From NCBI RefSeq assembly GCF_016428855.1, contig NZ_JAELTN010000021.1, forward strand, positions 1-64,000: DNA of 64,000 nt. Direction: 5' to 3'. Position numbers and translations under genes: made by a program. Under the pieces are notes generated by a model. That model did no database searches. It worked only from the letters and a program-made list of their open reading frames with translations, and was not told the origin of the DNA. Origin of the DNA: Pedobacter sp. ASV28 (lineage in GTDB: Bacteria; Bacteroidota; Bacteroidia; Sphingobacteriales; Sphingobacteriaceae). Each line of letters starts with the position of its first letter. Position 1 is the stretch's first letter. Of the stretch, positions 57,602 to 64,000 are shown in pieces.

Positions 57602-58024
57602 TTATTTACAGTTCTTTATATCGTTGGCCACCTGTTCATAAGTATACATGCCCTGGTTGTTGCCAAATGAATTGGTAATATATACGGTTACCTGTGCAAT
57701 ATCGATGTCGTGCAGATCAGGGAAAGAGGGCATTTTACCTTCGTAAGTTTTACCATTGATCAGTAGGGGACCATCAGCTCCATTCTTTATAAAGCAGGCC
57801 AGCTTATTCTTATTGTTTTTTAGAAAAACAGTATCGGTTAATGGGGGAGCTAATTCCCCCAGGCCCTCACCATTTTCTCCATGGCAATTCTGACATTTGG
57901 CCTTGTAAATATCTTTACCATTAGATAGGTATTTTGACATTTCAATTTCGCTGGCACTTTGGCAAGCATAAATAACTATGGCAATGGCCAAGAAGAAAAT
58001 GGTATAAACAATTATCTTTTTCAA
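57602..58024 (-). CDS. c-type cytochrome lipoprotein
   Basis: A 140-residue monohaem cytochrome c. The start is TTG at 58024 (MKKIIVYTIFF). A lipobox puts the acylated Cys at residue 21 (IVIYACQS). The haem motif CQNCH is at C44-C47-H48 and the Met ligand is in GKMPSF (M98). Mature part resembles the small cytochrome c domain partners of oxidases and peroxidases. It is the last gene of the putative copper operon, 53 bases after the SCO gene, and may move electrons to or from the MauG-type enzymes. Confidence 0.88.
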   Translation of the reverse strand: MKKIIVYTIFFLAIAIVIYACQSASEIEMSKYLSNGKDIYKAKCQNCHGENGEGLGELAPPLTDTVFLKNNKNKLACFIKNGADGPLLINGKTYEGKMPSFPDLHDIDIAQVTVYITNSFGNNQGMYTYEQVANDIKNCK

Positions 58025-58077
58025 ATTTTGATTATTGATTTTGCTAAACGTAAAACCTACAACTTATAGTGTACCAC

Positions 58078-58719
58078 CTACTTTTCGGCCAATAAAATGA
58101 CCATATCTTTTTTAAGTTTTTCAACTTCTTCGGTTTTGGTGCCATCATAAGCACCACGAATTCGCCTTTGTTTATCAATCAGTACCAGCCAGCCCTGATG
58201 TATATAACCATCTTTAGCAGTGCTATCTTCGCCTACGGCTACTAAGTAGTCGTGTTCAGCTAAATGGTATACCTTTTCTTTCTCTCCATAAACAAATTCC
58301 CATTTTTTGGTATCTACACCTAGTTTTTTGGCATAATTTTTCAACACAGAAGGTTTGTCGTATTTGAAATCGATGGTATGCGATAGAAACATCACATCTG
58401 GACGGTCCTTGAACTGCTCATAAACAGTTTTCAGGTTACGGTGCATAATGGGGCAAATGGTGCTGCACGACGTGAAGAAAAAATCTGCCACATACACTTT
58501 GTTTTTAAAGGTATCCTGCGTAATCTCTATGCTATCCTGATTGAGGAATTTAAAATCTGGGATCGTTTTATAAATGGTATCGATACGGTCAACACCATCA
58601 GCTCCTTTAATAATTTTCGCTTCACGGTCACCGTAAATTGGCAATTTTTTATTTTGGGTACAGGCAGTTCCAAATGCTATTAAACATCCGAATACGGCAT
58701 ATATAATTGACTTTTTCAT
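58078..58719 (-). CDS. SCO1/SenC family copper chaperone
   Basis: A 213-residue SCO family thioredoxin-fold protein with lipobox Cys20 (FGTACTQ). The copper ligands are C85 and C89 in TSCSTICP and a His in EKVYHLAEHDYLV (about 152 or 156). SCO proteins deliver copper to the CuA site of cytochrome c oxidase, or reduce its cysteines. ATG 58719 (MKKSIIYAVF) is preferred to 58755 because it begins a clean signal. It starts one base after the YHS gene stop. Confidence 0.93.
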   Translation of the reverse strand: MKKSIIYAVFGCLIAFGTACTQNKKLPIYGDREAKIIKGADGVDRIDTIYKTIPDFKFLNQDSIEITQDTFKNKVYVADFFFTSCSTICPIMHRNLKTVYEQFKDRPDVMFLSHTIDFKYDKPSVLKNYAKKLGVDTKKWEFVYGEKEKVYHLAEHDYLVAVGEDSTAKDGYIHQGWLVLIDKQRRIRGAYDGTKTEEVEKLKKDMVILLAEK

Positions 58720-58720
58720 A

Positions 58721-58972
58721 CTATTTCTTAATATATTTTTCAGGGTTTTGGTCAAATTTCAATTTGCATCCTTTACTACAAAATAGATACTCCTGTTTAT
58801 TGAAGGTACTTTTATGTACTGTTGATGGCTGGACTTTCATTTTACAAATGGGATCTAACTTTATACTGTCACTTAAAACAGTCACTTTTGAATAGGTTAA
58901 ATTAGCTGCACGGCCAGGGTATAATGCCCAACTACCAAGGACAAAAATACATATTATTAAGGTGGTTTTCAT
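58721..58972 (-). CDS. YHS domain protein, exported
   Basis: An 83-residue protein with a signal peptide (MKTTLIICIFVLGSWALYP) and a YHS metal domain: DPICKMKVQP with Cys43, and FCSKGCKLKF with C65 and C69. YHS domains occur in copper ATPases and metal carriers. It is likely periplasmic and binds metal. Two bases separate it from the upstream lipoprotein gene and one from SCO, so translation is coupled. Confidence 0.9.
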   Translation of the reverse strand: MKTTLIICIFVLGSWALYPGRAANLTYSKVTVLSDSIKLDPICKMKVQPSTVHKSTFNKQEYLFCSKGCKLKFDQNPEKYIKK

Positions 58973-58974
58973 AT

Positions 58975-59382
58975 TTAGGGTTTCGTAAATGGTTTTGCCT
59001 GTTCAATAGCATTTTCTAAGTTCAGTTGAACTTGTTTTAAACTATCTAATTGGTTTTTAAAATAGATTAAAGCTTCCGTCTTGGATCCTTTATAGTCAAG
59101 TTGAAAATGATGCATCCAATCCATCATTTTTTCATCTGCATGGTTTAATTCTGCAATAACAAACTTAATGGCAACGGTATCTTTATTGCCTAGTTTATTT
59201 TTTTGTAGCAATACACTATCTAACCTGAATTTAGTTTTAATGGCTTTTTCATTAATGACCATAGCTTGGTTGTGTAGCTGATCTATGGTTTGGATAATTT
59301 CTTTTTCTTGGTCTTTTTGTTGAGCTTGGCAGGCCATAAATAGCGAAACCGGTGTCAATAAGTAATAGATAATCTTTTTCAT
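58975..59382 (-). CDS. helical lipoprotein with Met/His motif
   Basis: A 135-residue lipoprotein from ATG 59382 (signal MKKIIYYLLTPVSLFMAC; the frame is open to 59436). Most of the protein is predicted helical and coiled-coil-like, with the metal-like segment DEKMMDWMHHF near residues 82-92. Similar Bacteroidota proteins carry the misleading label of viral A-type inclusion protein. The Met/His cluster and operon context point to metal binding in the envelope, which is inference. Confidence 0.7.
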   Translation of the reverse strand: MKKIIYYLLTPVSLFMACQAQQKDQEKEIIQTIDQLHNQAMVINEKAIKTKFRLDSVLLQKNKLGNKDTVAIKFVIAELNHADEKMMDWMHHFQLDYKGSKTEALIYFKNQLDSLKQVQLNLENAIEQAKPFTKP

Positions 59383-59392
59383 TTTTATAAAA

Positions 59393-60319
59393 TTAGAATG
59401 GAATGGAAACGTGTAACATGAGTCTATTGCCCGCATTGGCCCTTTGGTTGGCCAGTTCTTGTGCCACTACAATTTGATAATTGGCCCCAAAAGAGAATTT
59501 GTTCGTAGCAAATTCAAATCCGGTAACCAAAGAAGTAGAATAACCGCCAGAAACATCTACATTGTACTTGTTGTTTTCTATATCTTTAGTGGCCGTTTCG
59601 TAGAGTACACCTGCATTTGGTGCTATGGTAAACTTATGGAATAACCTCAATTTATAATAGAGTAGGGCATTGGTAGTGAGTTTGTTGCCGTAACGATATT
59701 GGTATTTGTTTTCTGTATTCATTTTATAGTTTACGTTGAGATTTATGCCTAAATCGTTCAATCTCACATCATAGGCGGCATTTAGCGTAAAATCGGTACT
59801 GGCCGTACCCAACTGGAAATTATTAGGGCTTTCCTGTACAGCTAGTTTTTCGCTAGGTTCGTAGGTTCCGGTAGGTAGTTTTATGCCAGCACCAAGCCAT
59901 AGCGAGTGCACCAATAATTTGCTGTTTAAGGAACTACTATTGGTGAATAGGTTATAGTAAGCCATCACTGCAATATCGCCCAGCCCATTTTTAGCGCCAC
60001 TTTCAGCTTGCGAACTGCGTTGGTTAAAATTATAAGGTACAAAAGCCAATGCCCTAAAGCGTTTTCCGAAATTCCATCCGCCCCAAAGTTCTGCAGTTTG
60101 ATAGGTTTCATCGGTAGTTAGGGGAGTAACCTGCCCTTGTGGCCCCAAATGAGTTTGTAATGTTTTATGCTGATATCGCAAGCCTATAAAACGCTTATTG
60201 TATTCGGGCAAAATGCCTATATAATAACTGCCTACACCACATCCGCAAATATCGCAAGCGTAGGTAGCCGTGCCAAGAAACAGAAGGCTAAAGGTTAATA
60301 TAATTTGTTTTTTCGTCAT
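59393..60319 (-). CDS. outer-membrane channel-like protein with N-terminal CDICGCG motif
   Basis: A 308-residue beta-barrel-like protein often annotated as transporter. The signal peptide ends at A21 and the mature N-terminus is CDICGCGVGSYYIG (Cys22, 25 and 27), followed by the barrel strands, which end in LMLHVSIPF. Repeated strands such as GLRYQHKTLQ and VNYKMNTENKYQYRYG suggest an outer-membrane barrel. The Cys cluster at the barrel mouth may bind copper. It lies 10 bases upstream of the helical lipoprotein and 64 bases downstream of a MauG-type gene, and its substrate is unknown. Confidence 0.72.
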   Translation of the reverse strand: MTKKQIILTFSLLFLGTATYACDICGCGVGSYYIGILPEYNKRFIGLRYQHKTLQTHLGPQGQVTPLTTDETYQTAELWGGWNFGKRFRALAFVPYNFNQRSSQAESGAKNGLGDIAVMAYYNLFTNSSSLNSKLLVHSLWLGAGIKLPTGTYEPSEKLAVQESPNNFQLGTASTDFTLNAAYDVRLNDLGINLNVNYKMNTENKYQYRYGNKLTTNALLYYKLRLFHKFTIAPNAGVLYETATKDIENNKYNVDVSGGYSTSLVTGFEFATNKFSFGANYQIVVAQELANQRANAGNRLMLHVSIPF

Positions 60320-60383
60320 ATCTACTGTGTTTTATGATCTGCTAGCTATCAGGTAACAGATAGCTAGAACTATTCACTAAAAA

Positions 60384-61430
60384 TTACTGTTCTGCCAATA
60401 ATTTGTTATTGATAAATTCCTCATCGTTCAACGTATTAAGAAAGGCCGTTAATTTGGTTTTCTCGTCGTTGCTAATGCTTATTCCCCTATTGCCATTTTT
60501 ATTTAGCAATGGATCGAGATTTACCAATACTTGCACTTCATTGGTATAATGCTGAAAAACAGCATCGAGGGTTAAAAATCGGCCATCATGCATGTATGGA
60601 GCTGTGTATTTTAGATTTCTTAGCGATGGTACCTTAAACTTATATTTGTCGCCATTTACCAGTGTAGCCGTATACAGCCCCAAATCATTTATAGGGCTAG
60701 GCGCTAAACCATTGTTCCTAAATTCCCCATCGGTAAAAAGAGGCTCGGTATGACAGTTGCCACATTTATCCTTAAACAACTGATAACCTTCCAATTCTGT
60801 GGTGCTAAAACTAATATTACCTTCTTTTCGCATGACCTTATCATATTTGGAATTACTGCTGATGCACATAATCATGAATTGTGATAAAGCTTTCATGAAA
60901 GCAGCAGTGGTAATTTCCTCAGTACCAAAGGCCGCTTTAAACTTTTCCCTGTAAGCGGGAACTGCTTTAAGCTTATTCAGTACATTCTCCAGATTTTCAT
61001 CCATTTCCTCGTGTGTGGTAATAGGTACTATGGGTTGTAAATCCAAGTCGTAAACACCGCCACCCCACATAAACGCCTTATTCCAAGCTAAATTCATGAT
61101 GGGTGGAGAGTTACGGGTACCTAGCCTGTCATCTATGCCATGACTTACATCGTGTCCGTGCTGTGTAAATGCCGATGATTGGATATGACAGGAACCACAA
61201 CTGATGGTATTGTTCCTAGATAGGCGAGGGTCGTAAAACAATTTTCTCCCTAGTTCAAAACCAGCTTTTGTTACCGTGTTATTGGCTATGCGGTATATTG
61301 GCTCAGGAAAATTTTTGGGCGTTTGAAAGCCTAAAAATGTTTCTATCTTTTCTTGTATAACCTCGCTTTTTTTACAAGCGAATACAAAGCACAATATCAC
61401 TAACAAATATTTAAAATATCTCCATTTCAT
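60384..61430 (-). CDS. MauG/CCP-type di-haem cytochrome c peroxidase, copy A
   Basis: A 348-residue di-haem enzyme from ATG 61430, with lipobox Cys19 (VFACKK). First haem C78-C81-H82 (CGSCHIQ) and second haem C223-C226-H227 (CGNCH). TAPYMHDGRF (Met280) near the C-terminus is typical of the cytochrome c peroxidase/MauG family. Members either reduce hydrogen peroxide or oxidise a Trp/Tyr of a partner. Adjacent MbnP-like gene (gap 1 base) argues for the MbnH type of work on MbnP, as in methanotrophs. The upstream frame to 61502 is not likely coding. Confidence 0.9.
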   Translation of the reverse strand: MKWRYFKYLLVILCFVFACKKSEVIQEKIETFLGFQTPKNFPEPIYRIANNTVTKAGFELGRKLFYDPRLSRNNTISCGSCHIQSSAFTQHGHDVSHGIDDRLGTRNSPPIMNLAWNKAFMWGGGVYDLDLQPIVPITTHEEMDENLENVLNKLKAVPAYREKFKAAFGTEEITTAAFMKALSQFMIMCISSNSKYDKVMRKEGNISFSTTELEGYQLFKDKCGNCHTEPLFTDGEFRNNGLAPSPINDLGLYTATLVNGDKYKFKVPSLRNLKYTAPYMHDGRFLTLDAVFQHYTNEVQVLVNLDPLLNKNGNRGISISNDEKTKLTAFLNTLNDEEFINNKLLAEQ

Positions 61431-61431
61431 T

Positions 61432-62274
61432 TTAATTCTCTGTGTGGTCGTGAGTAAAGAGTTGTGGGAAATTATCGGCGATTTTCGAAGAGAATTCTCC
61501 AAACATCACATTGGGATTTTCTTTAATACTAAAACTGTTTTTGCCATTGAAAACCTGCATGAGGTCTACGAAGAGATGGATATTGCTCTGCCTATCTTTT
61601 CTAACTTTAGCGATACCCGCATTGTTGAGGTCAATAGTAACACTTCTTATGTTATTAAGGGTAGGGACATCGTATCCTCCAAAAAAACCAATGTGGTATT
61701 TGAATTGTTTTTTACCAGTAGGGTCGCCCTTTTGGTCGTCGCTAATGAGATTAGAATTACCCTCAAGACGGAAGAAAATATAACCTGAGTTCCAACCCCA
61801 GTACATTCCACCATTATCCATACTCCCTCCGGTTGCAGGATCTAATACACCAGTCCTCCTATCTATAGGCATAGTACTTCTTAGGCTATCCACTCCTAAG
61901 ATAAAGGTCAGTTTACTATAATCTCCTTCAGGCACCTTTACTTTGGCAAAACGTGTAGTCTTGTCGGAACCCTTAATTAAAAAATATGAGCTATCTTGTT
62001 TAACTACATATTCTTTTCCTTCATTGGTGGTTACCTTTACATTGCTGATAAAATATTGGATCATGCTCACGGTAAATGGCTCGCCTTTGGCATTGGTATA
62101 GGGTACGGCGGTATTGTTAAAGGTCAGGGTTCTGCCTCCAACAATGTTGTCGAATTCAATAGAAAGCGGGGCAAGATTGTCTTCCTGAAAATTGGGTGTA
62201 GGATCTTGTTTTTTGCTACAAGCACTTAAGAGTAGCGTTACAAGGGCGGTGAAATATAATAGGTTTTTTTTCAT
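61432..62274 (-). CDS. MbnP-family copper-associated lipoprotein, complete copy
   Basis: A 280-residue MbnP-like protein with lipobox Cys19 (LLLSACSKK). The family start PLSIEFDNIVGGRTL, the FTVSMIQYFISNVKV segment, and the ending HLFVDLMQVFNG are visible. Trp159 and Trp161 in GMYWGWNSGYIFF are good candidates for the residue that a MauG-like partner could turn into kynurenine for Cu(I) binding, as in the methanotroph MbnP/MbnH pair. The ending EFSSKIADNFPQLFTHDHTEN has His for metal. Five bases separate it from the MauG gene copy B upstream. Confidence 0.85.
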   Translation of the reverse strand: MKKNLLYFTALVTLLLSACSKKQDPTPNFQEDNLAPLSIEFDNIVGGRTLTFNNTAVPYTNAKGEPFTVSMIQYFISNVKVTTNEGKEYVVKQDSSYFLIKGSDKTTRFAKVKVPEGDYSKLTFILGVDSLRSTMPIDRRTGVLDPATGGSMDNGGMYWGWNSGYIFFRLEGNSNLISDDQKGDPTGKKQFKYHIGFFGGYDVPTLNNIRSVTIDLNNAGIAKVRKDRQSNIHLFVDLMQVFNGKNSFSIKENPNVMFGEFSSKIADNFPQLFTHDHTEN

Positions 62275-62279
62275 TTCTT

Positions 62280-63359
62280 TTATAAATGAGGGTTACTAAT
62301 ATTTTTGTTCGTTATAAATTCTTGGTCGGTAAGGCGGTTTAAAAAAGCCTTGATCGCTTCTCTTTCTAGAGAAGACAATGGGATACCCAATTGTCCATTG
62401 TTTTGGTATAACAGCTGATCTACAGTTGATGATGCTTTTACGCCACTGCTATAGTGTGTTAATACTTCGTCGATATTCGCAAACCGACCATCGTGCATGT
62501 ATGGGGCGGTAAGCATTATGTTGCGTAGCGATGGTGTTTTAAATTTTCCCAGGTCAAACGGATTGAAAGTCACCCTAAATCTACCTTGATAAGTCCCCTC
62601 TAAATCGTCGTTGAAATGGCTGTCAATACCATTGTTATGGTAGCTATTATCTGTAAATAATTCGCCACTGTGGCAACTTTTGCACTTTTGTTCTACGAGC
62701 TGCATGCCTTGTAGTTCTACAGTAGTGAGCTGCGCTCCATTTTCTTTTCTTTTGTACTTGTCGTAAACCGAATTACCCGAAATAAGTGTCCTTTGAAACT
62801 GGGCCAGTGCCTTAGCAACATTTGCCGATTTTATACCATCTTTAAAAGCAAGATTGAACTGTTTGACATACATTGGAATGGCTTTAAGCTCTGCTTCTAG
62901 TTCAAACAGATTTTGAAACATTTCATCAGGACTGGTGAGCGGACCAAAGGCTTGAGATTCTAGATTAGTAGATCCGCCATCCCAGAAAAGGCCATTTTTA
63001 GCCCAGGCCATGTTGATCAATGCAGGAGCACTGCGATGCAAAGTCGCTCCAGATAGACCTATGTTGTTTAGTGCTAAACCGTCTGTAAAAGCCAAATCTT
63101 GACGATGGCACGAGGCGCAGGAAAGCTGATTGTTGCCAGACAACCGCTTGTCATAGAAAAGCATCCTGCCAAGTTTAACACCTTCTTTAGTTAACGGATT
63201 ATCTACATCGTCTATAAATGCAGGTAAATTACTAGGGGCATTTGGTTGGTAAGACTCGTTTACTTGCTGGTCTATAATATCGGTTTCTTCCTTTTTACAA
63301 GAAGAAACCGATAATACTAGCGCAACAGCGATCAGGACAATTATCTTGGCGTTGACCAT
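62280..63359 (-). CDS. MauG/CCP-type di-haem cytochrome c peroxidase, copy B
   Basis: A 359-residue di-haem protein from ATG 63359 (GTG 63365 is in frame). Lipobox Cys21 (SVSSCKKEE). Haem sites C81-C84-H85 (CASCHRQ) and C226-C229-H230 (CKSCH), and LTAPYMHDGRF near the C-terminus. It is diverged from copy A, but the structure is parallel. The start lies 5 bases downstream of the preceding MbnP-like stop, mirroring the arrangement of copy A with the complete MbnP. Each pair probably acts together. Confidence 0.9.
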   Translation of the reverse strand: MVNAKIIVLIAVALVLSVSSCKKEETDIIDQQVNESYQPNAPSNLPAFIDDVDNPLTKEGVKLGRMLFYDKRLSGNNQLSCASCHRQDLAFTDGLALNNIGLSGATLHRSAPALINMAWAKNGLFWDGGSTNLESQAFGPLTSPDEMFQNLFELEAELKAIPMYVKQFNLAFKDGIKSANVAKALAQFQRTLISGNSVYDKYKRKENGAQLTTVELQGMQLVEQKCKSCHSGELFTDNSYHNNGIDSHFNDDLEGTYQGRFRVTFNPFDLGKFKTPSLRNIMLTAPYMHDGRFANIDEVLTHYSSGVKASSTVDQLLYQNNGQLGIPLSSLEREAIKAFLNRLTDQEFITNKNISNPHL

Positions 63360-63364
63360 GATCA

Positions 63365-64000
63365 CTATTTTACCAATGATACGCTAAAAACTTTTGTAGC
63401 ATAATTATTGGCCAAAGCAGTCATGGTACTAGCTTGTGCGGCACCCACTATTGGCGTGGCCATTACATCAATACCATCCAAAACCTTGGCTACATCGGCT
63501 TTAATATCAATGGCAGTAGATTTAGTGCTACCGATACTTAAGTTTTGAGGAAAGTTTAAGGTAACTGTTCTATAGTTGGTGTTTAGACCTGTTTCTATTT
63601 TTATAGTTTTGGCGATAGCATTTTCATTAGCTGTACCACCAATTGCAGTAAAAATATAGCTGGTGTGCCACATCCAGGAAACATTGGTCATGCCATTCAA
63701 CTGTGAAAGTTCACCAATTTGTAGGCTTAGGTTGTCATTGTATTTCGATTCAACACCTATACCAAATTTAATAGCTTTATATTCACCTGCAGGGATATTG
63801 CTTAATTCTACCAGTTCACGTTTATTGGCAGGATAGGTATAGTCTCCATCTTGTACGGCTACTGCAGATGTTTCTTCCAGTAAATAATAAGATTTGGGTA
63901 CATTATACTCTTCACCATTGGTTTTAACCAATACCACATTGCTTACCCAATATCTAAATTTATTGAACTTAAAAGTTTTAGTTCCGGTAGTTAGATCTGT
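63365..64000 (-). CDS. MbnP-family protein, N-terminus cut by window edge
   Basis: The frame runs to the end of the window, giving TDLTTGTKTFKFNKFRYWVS before the GTG at 63937, so that GTG is not the start. Visible segments are RYWVSNVVLVKTNGEEYNVP, GEYKAIKFGIGVESKYN, and NVSWMWHTSYIFTAIGG. The Trp pair in WMWHTSYIF aligns with YWGWNSGYIF of the other copy. The 3' end has a valine-rich tail TMTALANNYATKVFSVSLVK. It is the first gene in this part of the operon and pairs with the MauG copy B. Confidence 0.82.
   Translation of the reverse strand, partial: TDLTTGTKTFKFNKFRYWVSNVVLVKTNGEEYNVPKSYYLLEETSAVAVQDGDYTYPANKRELVELSNIPAGEYKAIKFGIGVESKYNDNLSLQIGELSQLNGMTNVSWMWHTSYIFTAIGGTANENAIAKTIKIETGLNTNYRTVTLNFPQNLSIGSTKSTAIDIKADVAKVLDGIDVMATPIVGAAQASTMTALANNYATKVFSVSLVK

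Follow-up and report, generated by a model that had tools for sequence, protein, structure and literature searches.

An envelope operon of Pedobacter sp. ASV28 that probably handles copper: two old MbnP/MbnH lineages behind a candidate copper-sensing leader ORF

The window is a stretch of 64,000 nucleotides from Pedobacter sp. ASV28 (contig NZ_JAELTN010000021.1). Reading of the ORFs in the DNA gives nine consecutive genes on the minus strand from 57602 to the end of the window. Taken from likely starts chosen by eye, the eight intergenic gaps measure 53, 1, 2, 10, 64, 1, 5, and 5 bases, counted from the cytC side. An earlier note on this DNA had described nine tightly spaced minus-strand genes with gaps of 1–64 bases, and the same gaps were recovered. 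The window edge at 64000 cuts the operon: MbnP_A reaches contig base 64147, and the operon opens with a tenth gene just beyond the window at 64345–64722. This head gene was outside the stretch visible to the earlier note. The features are as follows.

57602..58024, minus strand: cytC, lipoprotein c-type cytochrome with one CXXCH and Met98 (Cytochrome_CBB3, 39.2 bits, over the Pfam cut-off)
58078..58719, minus strand: SCO, copper-chaperone family lipoprotein (SCO1-SenC, 77.7 bits, over the Pfam cut-off; start set by eye)
58721..58972, minus strand: YHS-domain protein (YHS, 50.4 bits, over the Pfam cut-off)
58975..59382, minus strand: hel, helical lipoprotein with invariant H55, M59, M104, W107, M108, and F111 (start set by eye)
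59393..60319, minus strand: barrel, outer-membrane channel-like beta-barrel by predicted structure, with an N-terminal CDICGCG
60384..61430, minus strand: MbnH_B, di-haem MauG/MbnH-type protein with two CXXCH (CCP_MauG PF03150, 183.1 bits)
61432..62274, minus strand: MbnP_B, with M157-Y-W159-G-W161 and H194 (PF20243, 162.8 bits)
62280..63359, minus strand: MbnH_A, di-haem MauG/MbnH-type protein with two CXXCH (CCP_MauG PF03150, 183.3 bits)
63365..64000, on to contig base 64147, minus strand: MbnP_A, with W158-M-W160 kept and Glu for the conserved His (PF20243, 139.1 bits at full length)
64148-64344: gap of 197 nt between MbnP_A and the head gene
64345-64722, minus strand: cys131, head gene, proposed leader ORF for copper sensing; it carries C-x9-C-x-G-x-C, and its PP lies three residues from the stop

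Gene neighbourhoods were read at 76 family loci, the own locus included, which come from 72 of 74 MbnP-bearing genomes and represent part of the MbnP sites of those genomes. The head gene is present in 73 of these loci, an MbnH homologue in 72, the barrel gene in 57, the SCO gene in 27, hel in 24, the cytochrome c gene in 19, and the YHS gene in 11. This recurrence argues that the grouping is not due to chance. A set of 72 named loci was obtained by a contig pattern scan with [FL]RYWVSN[VI][VK] and WMW[FH]TSY; it overlaps the first set (e.g., L083 = G105) and represents some genomes more than once. Ranked by MbnP_A identity, the closest of the named loci belong to Pedobacter and Nubsella, in keeping with the Bacteroidota assignment of the earlier note.

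Among the accessory genes, CXXCH and M98 are present in 19/19 homologues of cytC, C97-x3-C101 (CxxxC) and the distal H186 in 30/30 homologues of SCO, and C43, C65, and C69 in 11/11 homologues of the YHS protein. The profile search of Pfam and NCBIfam gave nothing above cut-off for hel or barrel. The six invariant residues of hel recur in all 24 homologues, and in the barrel C22 and C25 are kept in 57/57 homologues and C27 in 49/57. The AlphaFold2 model of the barrel has a pLDDT of 85.0, with residues 15–35, which include CDICGCG, below 50. Its top Foldseek matches are FapF (5o67, TMq 0.67) and the COG4313 channel 4rl8, and by this model the protein is an outer-membrane-type beta-barrel nearest FapF.

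Both MbnPs score above the PF20243 (MbnP) cut-off of 27 bits, and both MbnHs above the PF03150 (CCP_MauG) cut-off of 25.6 bits. Scores against the NCBIfam models fell below cut-off: with TIGR04039 (MbnH), 211.4 bits for MbnH_B and 246.6 for the other MbnH against 362.85, and with TIGR04052 (MbnP_like_WxW), 43.3 and 37.6 bits against 140. The best PDB match of MbnH_A is the “Di-heme enzyme” 6e1c (E 1.6e-48), which we take to be MbnH. A profile of B/C-type MbnP sequences matches the solved MbnP 7l6g (E 7.9e-4), the GMxWxW and HxG motifs being aligned, and for the AlphaFold2 model of MbnP_A the six chains of 7l6g are the sole matches at E ≤ 0.001 (TM about 0.5). Two CXXCH motifs are found in 83/83 MbnH homologues longer than 250 aa. 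An axial Tyr on the second haem is used as a mark of MauG and MbnH as opposed to classical CcPs, and in these 83 homologues the residue is Tyr in 68, Phe in 14, and Met in one. As proof of MauG-type chemistry, the axial Tyr was rejected: by eye, the two other CCP_MauG proteins of the genome carry it too, so it is not diagnostic.

The MbnP/MbnH of Methylosinus trichosporium (7l6g; 6e1c) shares with these pairs the modelled MbnP fold, GMxWxW plus HxG, and the adjoining di-haem protein. The Pedobacter operon differs in its two tandem lineages, the Glu/Asp of lineage A, the missed NCBIfam cut-offs, and the lack of MbnB. The earlier note had seen no methanobactin genes, and this extends to the whole genome as far as MbnB is concerned (0 matches to PF05114). 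MbnP/MbnH pairs far outside methanobactin producers have already been published (available text of PMC3621798), as have MbnPH-like genes in operons headed by a CruR leader ORF (available text of PMC9426467), and for the pair as such the phrase “possibly undescribed system” claims too much. In MopE/CorA, a kynurenine lies near the Cu(I) site, the partner is a di-haem protein, and expression is copper-repressed (available text of PMC3912023). The di-haem partner is common ground, as are, by prediction here, a kynurenine by a Cu(I) site and repression by copper, whereas the MopE/CorA site has two His. Three MbnP profiles did not match MopE/CorA in the PDB at E ≤ 10.

The MbnP tree and the MbnH tree match, with A and B as distinct lineages in each, and lineage A is a single clade in both (SH-aLRT 99 and 100; 9 pairs). 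Both were built rapidly under LG+G4 and gave long-branch warnings at the junction of A, T3, and L082, which leaves the grouping of A with T3 uncertain. Sequences were labelled B or C by rough patterns, and this put a few rows under the wrong label. Across 80 neighbouring pairs, MbnP distances are correlated with MbnH distances (r 0.938, a value reached in 0 of 999 permutations), a comparison that left out the 6 of 86 MbnPs without a neighbouring MbnH. A recent tandem duplication of one pair was rejected, since a wide distance separates A from B in each tree; by their sequences, the two MbnP/MbnH pairs are old, matched lineages. The tandem maturase-substrate pairs claimed in the earlier note are found as two adjoining pairs in which MbnP tracks MbnH. 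Their co-occurrence, which that note had named as a check, is also seen: in 58 of the 72 named loci, a different MbnP type is encoded on the same strand within 8 kb of MbnP_A, and the two are direct neighbours in 45 of them and in 11/11 family loci having A. Lineage A was found in Pedobacter, Chitinophaga, Dyadobacter, Flavobacterium, and Sphingobacterium, and in Myxococcota-labelled loci it stands without a same-strand B partner.

The Trp of WxW in MbnP is presumably the residue that is turned into kynurenine. Counted on distinct sequences (214 from 232 rows), the first Trp of WxW is present in 75/75 A, 96/100 B, 24/24 C, and 15/15 T3 sequences, where WxW and W-M-W counts from the named loci lean to the letters of the scan patterns that include them. 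The conservation of Trp in relatives, on which the earlier note had staked its proposal, is borne out by these counts. By alignment to 7l6g, and in line with the copper site reported for MbnP, we take M157 and H194 of MbnP_B to be the copper ligands. The Met is present in 93/100 distinct B sequences. The His is found in 96/100 B sequences and is also conserved in C and T3; at this position, which is in neither scan pattern, 74/75 A sequences have Glu or Asp. Lineage A conserves a Met elsewhere in the sequence (74/75), but almost none of the further His/Met positions that are kept in B. Exceptions are the C-type L102, which has WxW with Asp for His, and the A-type L154, which has His. Four Dyadobacter MbnPs of lineage B that lack both Trp are the same four with Gln for His; since these sequences lost both, Trp and His go together. 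Judged from its sequences, lineage A seems to have lost its putative copper ligand, and because Glu/Asp replaces His, MbnP_A probably does not hold Cu(I) the way MbnP does. The same copper job for both pairs, as the earlier note had it, is not supported, given this ligand change and the near absence of B's further His/Met positions.

For the head gene, Pfam gave nothing at E ≤ 1 and NCBIfam chance-level matches only (best E 0.0086), and it is the single match to its family in its own genome. The Cys motif and PP occur in 185/186 homologues (171 distinct sequences), with 1–11 residues after PP, and in 80/80 from a wider Bacteroidota sample, with at most 8 residues after PP in 77; the motif is partly selected for, as homologues were found by similarity to this head gene. 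PP is mostly preceded by F[HR]. In residues 72–125 conservation is below 60% in every column, and the linker from the Cys motif to PP has a mean identity of about 0.2 with a length SD of 1.5. Four MbnP segments below 0.30 identity have, in comparison, a length SD of 3.6, while families with better-conserved sequence keep their length at least about as constant as the linker does (SD 1.7 for MbnH segments at identity 0.48, SCO 0.3 at 0.56, cytC 0.2 at 0.64). An N-terminal hydrophobic stretch, which may or may not be the Sec signal peptide of CutF-like leader ORFs, was recognized by eye.

The gap between the head gene and MbnP has a median of 136 nt, versus 3–11 nt for the four commonest other gaps (rarer ones reach 61–89 nt), with lengths taken from the first possible start of each ORF and counts that ignore relatedness. 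The 197-nt gap of the own locus has an RNA fold z of −3.20, and 0 of 200 shuffles were equally stable. Over 60 loci (the first 60 of 82 eligible gaps, 30 shuffles each), gaps after the head gene have a mean fold z of −2.36, versus −0.59 and −0.35 for controls, with p-values that ignore relatedness. No intrinsic terminator was found in the gap, no conserved RNA sequence among 7 near relatives, and no conserved DNA operator, by eye, in 18 stretches 5' of the head gene.

CruR (DUF2946) stands first in copper operons, combines a Cys motif with PP near the stop, conserved spacing, and a long gap, and also heads TonB receptors and MbnPH-like genes (available text of PMC9426467). The head gene likewise stands first and shows a Cys motif, a PP close to its end, a conserved spacing, and a long gap, but its Cys motif is C-x9-CxGxC where CruR has CXXC, its PP is mostly part of F[HR]PP where CruR has RAPP, its spacing is about 66 against 45, and its hosts are Bacteroidota. 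It was rejected as a DUF2946 member, as PF11162 matched none of 18 members at E ≤ 0.1 and nothing in the genome. CutF-like proteins are described as short, with CxxxC, PP near the C-terminus, and a close same-strand neighbour (available text of PMC9973294), and the head gene, which is short, has CxxxC, PP close to the C-terminus, and a same-strand gene close downstream. The CutF-like set was seeded from multicopper oxidase neighbours and contains 40% Bacteroidota when normalised and 19% otherwise (available text of PMC9973294); members of the head-gene family may already be within its list D. In the available text of PMC12992588, RAPP/RGPP leader ORFs of copper-related genes are reported missing in Bacteroidota, and the TonB-related class of such ORFs is called universal in Gram-negatives. 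A TonB-receptor Plug protein is next after the head-gene homologue in 29 of the 80 loci of the wider sample, which were hand-picked, mostly one per genome, from a ranked candidate list outside the own family (at least 118/296, with at most 14 candidates scored per genome). To judge from sequence, the head gene has the copper-sensing leader-ORF architecture of CruR and CutF.

The operon parts are of known kinds, and gene content, order, conservation, the old matched lineages, the ligand change in A, and the head-gene architecture can be read directly from the DNA and its relatives. The ten-gene envelope operon probably handles copper, in support of the copper context of the earlier note. We lean towards envelope copper acquisition and delivery, headed by a copper-sensing leader ORF. 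The nascent chain of the head gene would read copper through its Cys motif during translation and pause at PP near the stop, and this pause would decide whether the structured gap permits operon expression. By analogy with CruR, the operon would be on at low copper; the CutF sign is the reverse. MbnH_B would oxidise W159 of MbnP_B to kynurenine, and this residue, along with M157 and H194, would make up a Cu(I) site. MbnH_A would oxidise the equivalent Trp in MbnP_A, at a site with a carboxylate for His, which might bind copper weakly, Cu(II), or another metal, or the oxidised Trp might serve a use other than a Cu(I) site. The barrel would be an outer-membrane channel, and hel, the YHS protein, and SCO would hand copper on towards a terminal oxidase. 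The own genome encodes a COX2-domain protein and, some 6 kb away, a second SCO, and it has no TonB-copper receptor above cut-off.

The head gene might instead encode an ordinary, mature inner-membrane copper chaperone or anchor, with a Cys motif that acts after folding and no regulatory leader. Its second and third Cys form CxxxC as in SCO, the N-terminal stretch is hydrophobic by eye, and the gene mostly adjoins others suited to copper or outer-membrane transport. We regard this as unlikely, given the invariant PP near the stop behind a linker that holds its length without a conserved column, and the usually long gap that folds better than controls. The operon might alternatively detoxify copper or peroxide, with peroxidases as the di-haem proteins and a leader of the CutF sign (copper switches on), as CutF is required for copper-dependent production of the downstream oxidase (available text of PMC9973294) and bacterial CcPs are close PDB relatives. 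This appears quite improbable: members of this leader family also stand in front of TonB-dependent receptors, whose function is import, the families of the operon include no efflux pump and no multicopper oxidase, MbnH_A is closest to 6e1c in the PDB, and MbnP tracks MbnH.

Lineage A could also be no more than a redundant or degenerating copy of B that lacks a role of its own, for 2 of the 11 family loci with A look broken (MbnP_A is split in L054 and MbnH_A in L071) and MbnH_A is in pieces in the named locus L111, all possibly through assembly error. Against this stand the single clade in both trees, the conservation of A's own WMW, Met, and Glu/Asp, the spread from Pedobacter to Sphingobacterium, and the partnerless Myxococcota-labelled loci, which make such a copy the least probable of the readings weighed here.

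A bolder combined proposal is advanced tentatively. Bacteroidota may own a copper-sensing arrest-leader family, with three Cys, a fixed linker, and mostly F[HR]PP, that heads MbnP/MbnH and TonB-receptor operons, and at the same time the oxidised Trp of lineage A (kynurenine or another product, perhaps involving the Met of W-M-W) may be newly used at a carboxylate-lined site instead of a His/Met Cu(I) site. The MbnP site occurs in two natural versions, with His or with Glu/Asp, adjacent in many genomes, which lets the purpose of kynurenine be asked, and the four Dyadobacter MbnPs without Trp and His are a ready natural control. To our knowledge, copper uptake in Bacteroidota is poorly described. 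This operon would be a compact case of it, and across the phylum the family of its head gene is a candidate sensor of copper through the nascent chain.

The earlier note had described nine consecutive minus-strand genes separated by gaps of 1 to 64 bases, and this arrangement was borne out in the DNA. Pfam gave the order MbnP, CCP_MauG, MbnP, CCP_MauG, barrel, helical lipoprotein, YHS, SCO1-SenC and cytochrome c, with no family above cut-off for the barrel or the helical lipoprotein. The operon end at base 64000 is artificial, because the window (bases 1-64000) stops inside a 77,287-base contig. The MbnP of the first pair (MbnP_A) starts at about base 64147, past the window edge, and is preceded by a further gene, a candidate copper-sensing leader ORF termed the head gene:

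64345-64722, minus strand (the strand of the operon), head gene, 125 residues, on the contig beyond the window

The gene upstream of it encodes a DUF4377/META protein, for which no homologue was found in the other 75 family loci.

Within the host family, MbnP occurs in 74 of 151 genomes. The family set comprises 76 loci (L007 to L082) from 72 of these 74 genomes, and leaves out extra MbnP places of a few small genomes. Counted over the 76 loci, the genes recovered were the head gene (73 loci), MbnH (72), the barrel (57), SCO (27), the helical lipoprotein (24), cytochrome c (19) and YHS (11); the operon core therefore consists of the head gene, MbnP, MbnH and the barrel. SCO was found in 18/18 loci of the own genus versus 9/58 of the remaining family loci. 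Phylum-wide, 97 of 395 genomes have an MbnP match, 96 of them above cut-off.

Both di-haem enzymes, MbnH_A and MbnH_B, are CCP_MauG members with two CXXCH motifs each. They score well against the NCBIfam MbnH model, yet below its cut-off; in the PDB, MbnH_A matches 6e1c best (E 1.6e-48). These enzymes have the axial Tyr, which is not diagnostic. Quick trees of 80 neighbouring MbnP/MbnH pairs, which carried long-branch warnings, share their main groups, namely lineages A and T3 versus B and C. Lineage A (9 pairs) is one clade in both (SH-aLRT 99 and 100). MbnP and MbnH tree distances are correlated (r 0.938, as high in 0 of 999 permutations; 0.902 inside B and C alone). From the matching trees and this correlation it follows that each MbnP travelled with its own MbnH. 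A recent duplication of one pair was ruled out, as A and B are separate lineages in both trees.

The proposal that the pairs occur in tandem was upheld: the A pair adjoins a B pair in all 11 family loci that carry A. A scan of named genomes with an A profile yielded 72 loci. At 58 of them a different MbnP type is encoded on the same strand no more than 8 kb away; another 8 lack such a partner although 5 kb or more of sequence flanks them on each side, and 6 lie at contig ends. At 45 of all 72 loci, the A pair has a B or C pair as its immediate neighbour. By label, 65 loci belong to Bacteroidota (58 have a partner, 3 lack one and 4 are at contig ends); the other 7, from Myxococcota or the Comamonas-labelled KCTC 72670, all lack a same-strand partner. 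Hosts of A include Pedobacter, Nubsella, Mucilaginibacter, Chitinophaga, Dyadobacter, Flavobacterium, Sphingobacterium, Parapedobacter, Echinicola and Larkinella; in Flavobacterium loci carrying both, B comes first and A second.

The A-type pairs on the Comamonas sp. KCTC 72670 contig (BNCN01000002.1; L137, L151) score like those of Myxococcota-labelled genomes, and its label may be wrong. Beside B pairs, MbnP_A appears broken at L054:10307-11200 (G097, with in-frame stops), and MbnH_A appears broken at L071:9029-10100 (G142) and L111:9776-10900; these breaks would reflect either decay or assembly error. T3 is a third lineage found in other genera (e.g. L052:9825-11912, L057:5666-6661). In 14 T3 loci, a protein of about 667 residues lies a median of 1.5 kb upstream of MbnP; the one member scanned had no Pfam family at E 0.001. 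Still farther upstream (19 loci) is a 308-residue protein, of which the one member scanned matched YtkA slightly below cut-off.

MbnP is said to have its first WxW Trp converted to kynurenine, and its copper ligands are reportedly one His and one Met. Against the PDB, a B/C-type profile of 57 sequences found a single credible relative, the solved MbnP 7l6g (E 7.9e-4), whose GMAWNW and VHVG lie opposite GMYWxW and YHIG; A and T3 profiles found none by sequence. An AlphaFold2 model of MbnP_A (pLDDT 85.2, low at the WxW loop) matched only the six 7l6g chains at E<=0.001, with TM 0.49-0.52 by query and an rmsd of about 7. Counted on distinct sequences, the first WxW Trp is conserved (75/75 A, 96/100 B, 24/24 C, 15/15 T3). 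The conserved His is present in 96/100 B, 23/24 C and 15/15 T3, whereas the 75 A sequences have Glu (67), Asp (7) or His (1, from L154). A C-type MbnP (L102) keeps WxW with Asp for His. Other positions also differ between B and A: H233 (84/100 vs 1/75), M257 (90/100 vs 0/75), H277 (84/100 vs 0/75) and M157 (93/100 vs 1/75); the median His count per MbnP is 6 in B and 2 in A. An A-specific Met precedes the motif in 74/75 A, and the Met of W-M-W occurs in 73/75, partly selected through the search pattern. By elimination, we infer that H194 and M157 would be the copper ligands of MbnP_B. The four B-lineage MbnPs with Gln for His are the same four Dyadobacter proteins that lack both Trp; this joint loss links Trp and His to one site. 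These four are extra MbnPs at their loci (L105:3323-4234, L107:3326-4237, L109:3418-4287, L110:3458-4279), and still adjoin an MbnH_B-type gene.

The head gene has a single match in the host genome, no Pfam family at E<=1 and only chance-level NCBIfam matches; among 18 members searched against Pfam, isolated ones match unrelated families (best E 4e-4). All 88 family sequences share three Cys and two Pro. In 186 sequences pooled from both locus sets (171 distinct), the Cys motif with a later PP occurs in 185, the exception being the apparently truncated L111 head gene, and the C-x9-C-x3-C spacing in 182. The third Cys and PP are 62-73 residues apart (mean 65.8, SD 1.9), and 1-11 residues follow PP. 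Cys motif and PP are present in 80/80 hand-picked phylum loci; in 77 of these, PP is no more than 8 residues from the end. For the family set, linker length has an SD of 1.5 despite a mean identity of about 0.2; four MbnP segments of like span (identity <0.30) have 3.6, helical-lipoprotein segments 3.8 at 0.36 and the barrel 2.7 at 0.40. Better-conserved segments have 1.7 (MbnH, identity 0.48), 0.3 (SCO, 0.56) and 0.2 (cytochrome c, 0.64).

The gap between head gene and MbnP has a median of 136 nt (n=111); the four commonest other operon gaps are 3, 4, 5 and 11 nt, with rarer ones up to 61-89 nt. Its folds are more stable than those of shuffles (mean z -2.36, below -2 in 33/60), versus a mean z of -0.59 (9/60) for length-matched controls from just before the head gene and -0.35 (4/60) at the MbnP start (paired p 2e-7 and 1.6e-9, ignoring relatedness). 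TAnnTTTG is the Bacteroidota promoter consensus. Such a box lies outside the window at contig 64728-64735 (L007:7228-7235), 5 bases before the likely head-gene ATG, which suggests that the transcript may have almost no leader. Several relatives show similar boxes. Phylum-wide, the head gene occurs in at least 118 of 296 genomes. In 80 phylum loci, the next gene is MbnP (21), barrel (12), SCO (1), helical lipoprotein (1), an unlabelled protein (41) or none found (4). The unlabelled proteins comprise 29 with a TonB-receptor Plug, 6 YtkA and 6 others; the TonB-copper model matches 20 next-gene proteins (best E 1.2e-82) and the haemoglobin-receptor model 28 (best 6.2e-53), although such models cross-match.

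According to PMC9426467, CruR is a 145-residue first gene upstream of a TonB receptor, and copper is sensed through the CXXC of its nascent chain. Arrest is proposed at RAPP, three residues short of the end, with 45 residues between CXXC and RAPP and a 162-bp gap downstream (PMC9426467). PMC12992588 describes the arrest of CruR in vitro. It reports a TonB-related class of RAPP/RGPP leader ORFs as universal in Gram-negatives, but found no Bacteroidota examples of the class that belongs to copper-related genes. In the features tested, the head-gene family follows the rules by which PMC9973294 defines CutF-like proteins. This class has already been observed in bulk, because Bacteroidota make up 40% (normalised) or 19% (otherwise) of the list there. 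Among the titles and abstract starts listed by full-text searches of open-licence papers, none dealt with Bacteroidota MbnP/MbnH together with a leader ORF.

The earlier note had seen no methanobactin genes, and MbnB is indeed absent from the whole host genome. Neither DUF2946 nor a TonB-copper receptor above cut-off (best 76.9 bits vs 472.45) was found there. The genome encodes one COX2-domain protein, with a second SCO about 6 kb away on the same contig, and a third, partial SCO match. The barrel model is similar to FapF and a COG4313 channel. The helical lipoprotein (window 58975-59382) has invariant His, Met, Met, Trp, Met and Phe in 24/24 homologues, and weakly matches LIC13259/LIC11441 in NCBIfam. 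Judged from its genes, the cluster is probably a copper operon in which known kinds of parts are newly combined. The points most worth work are the candidate leader ORF and lineage A, which lacks the His.
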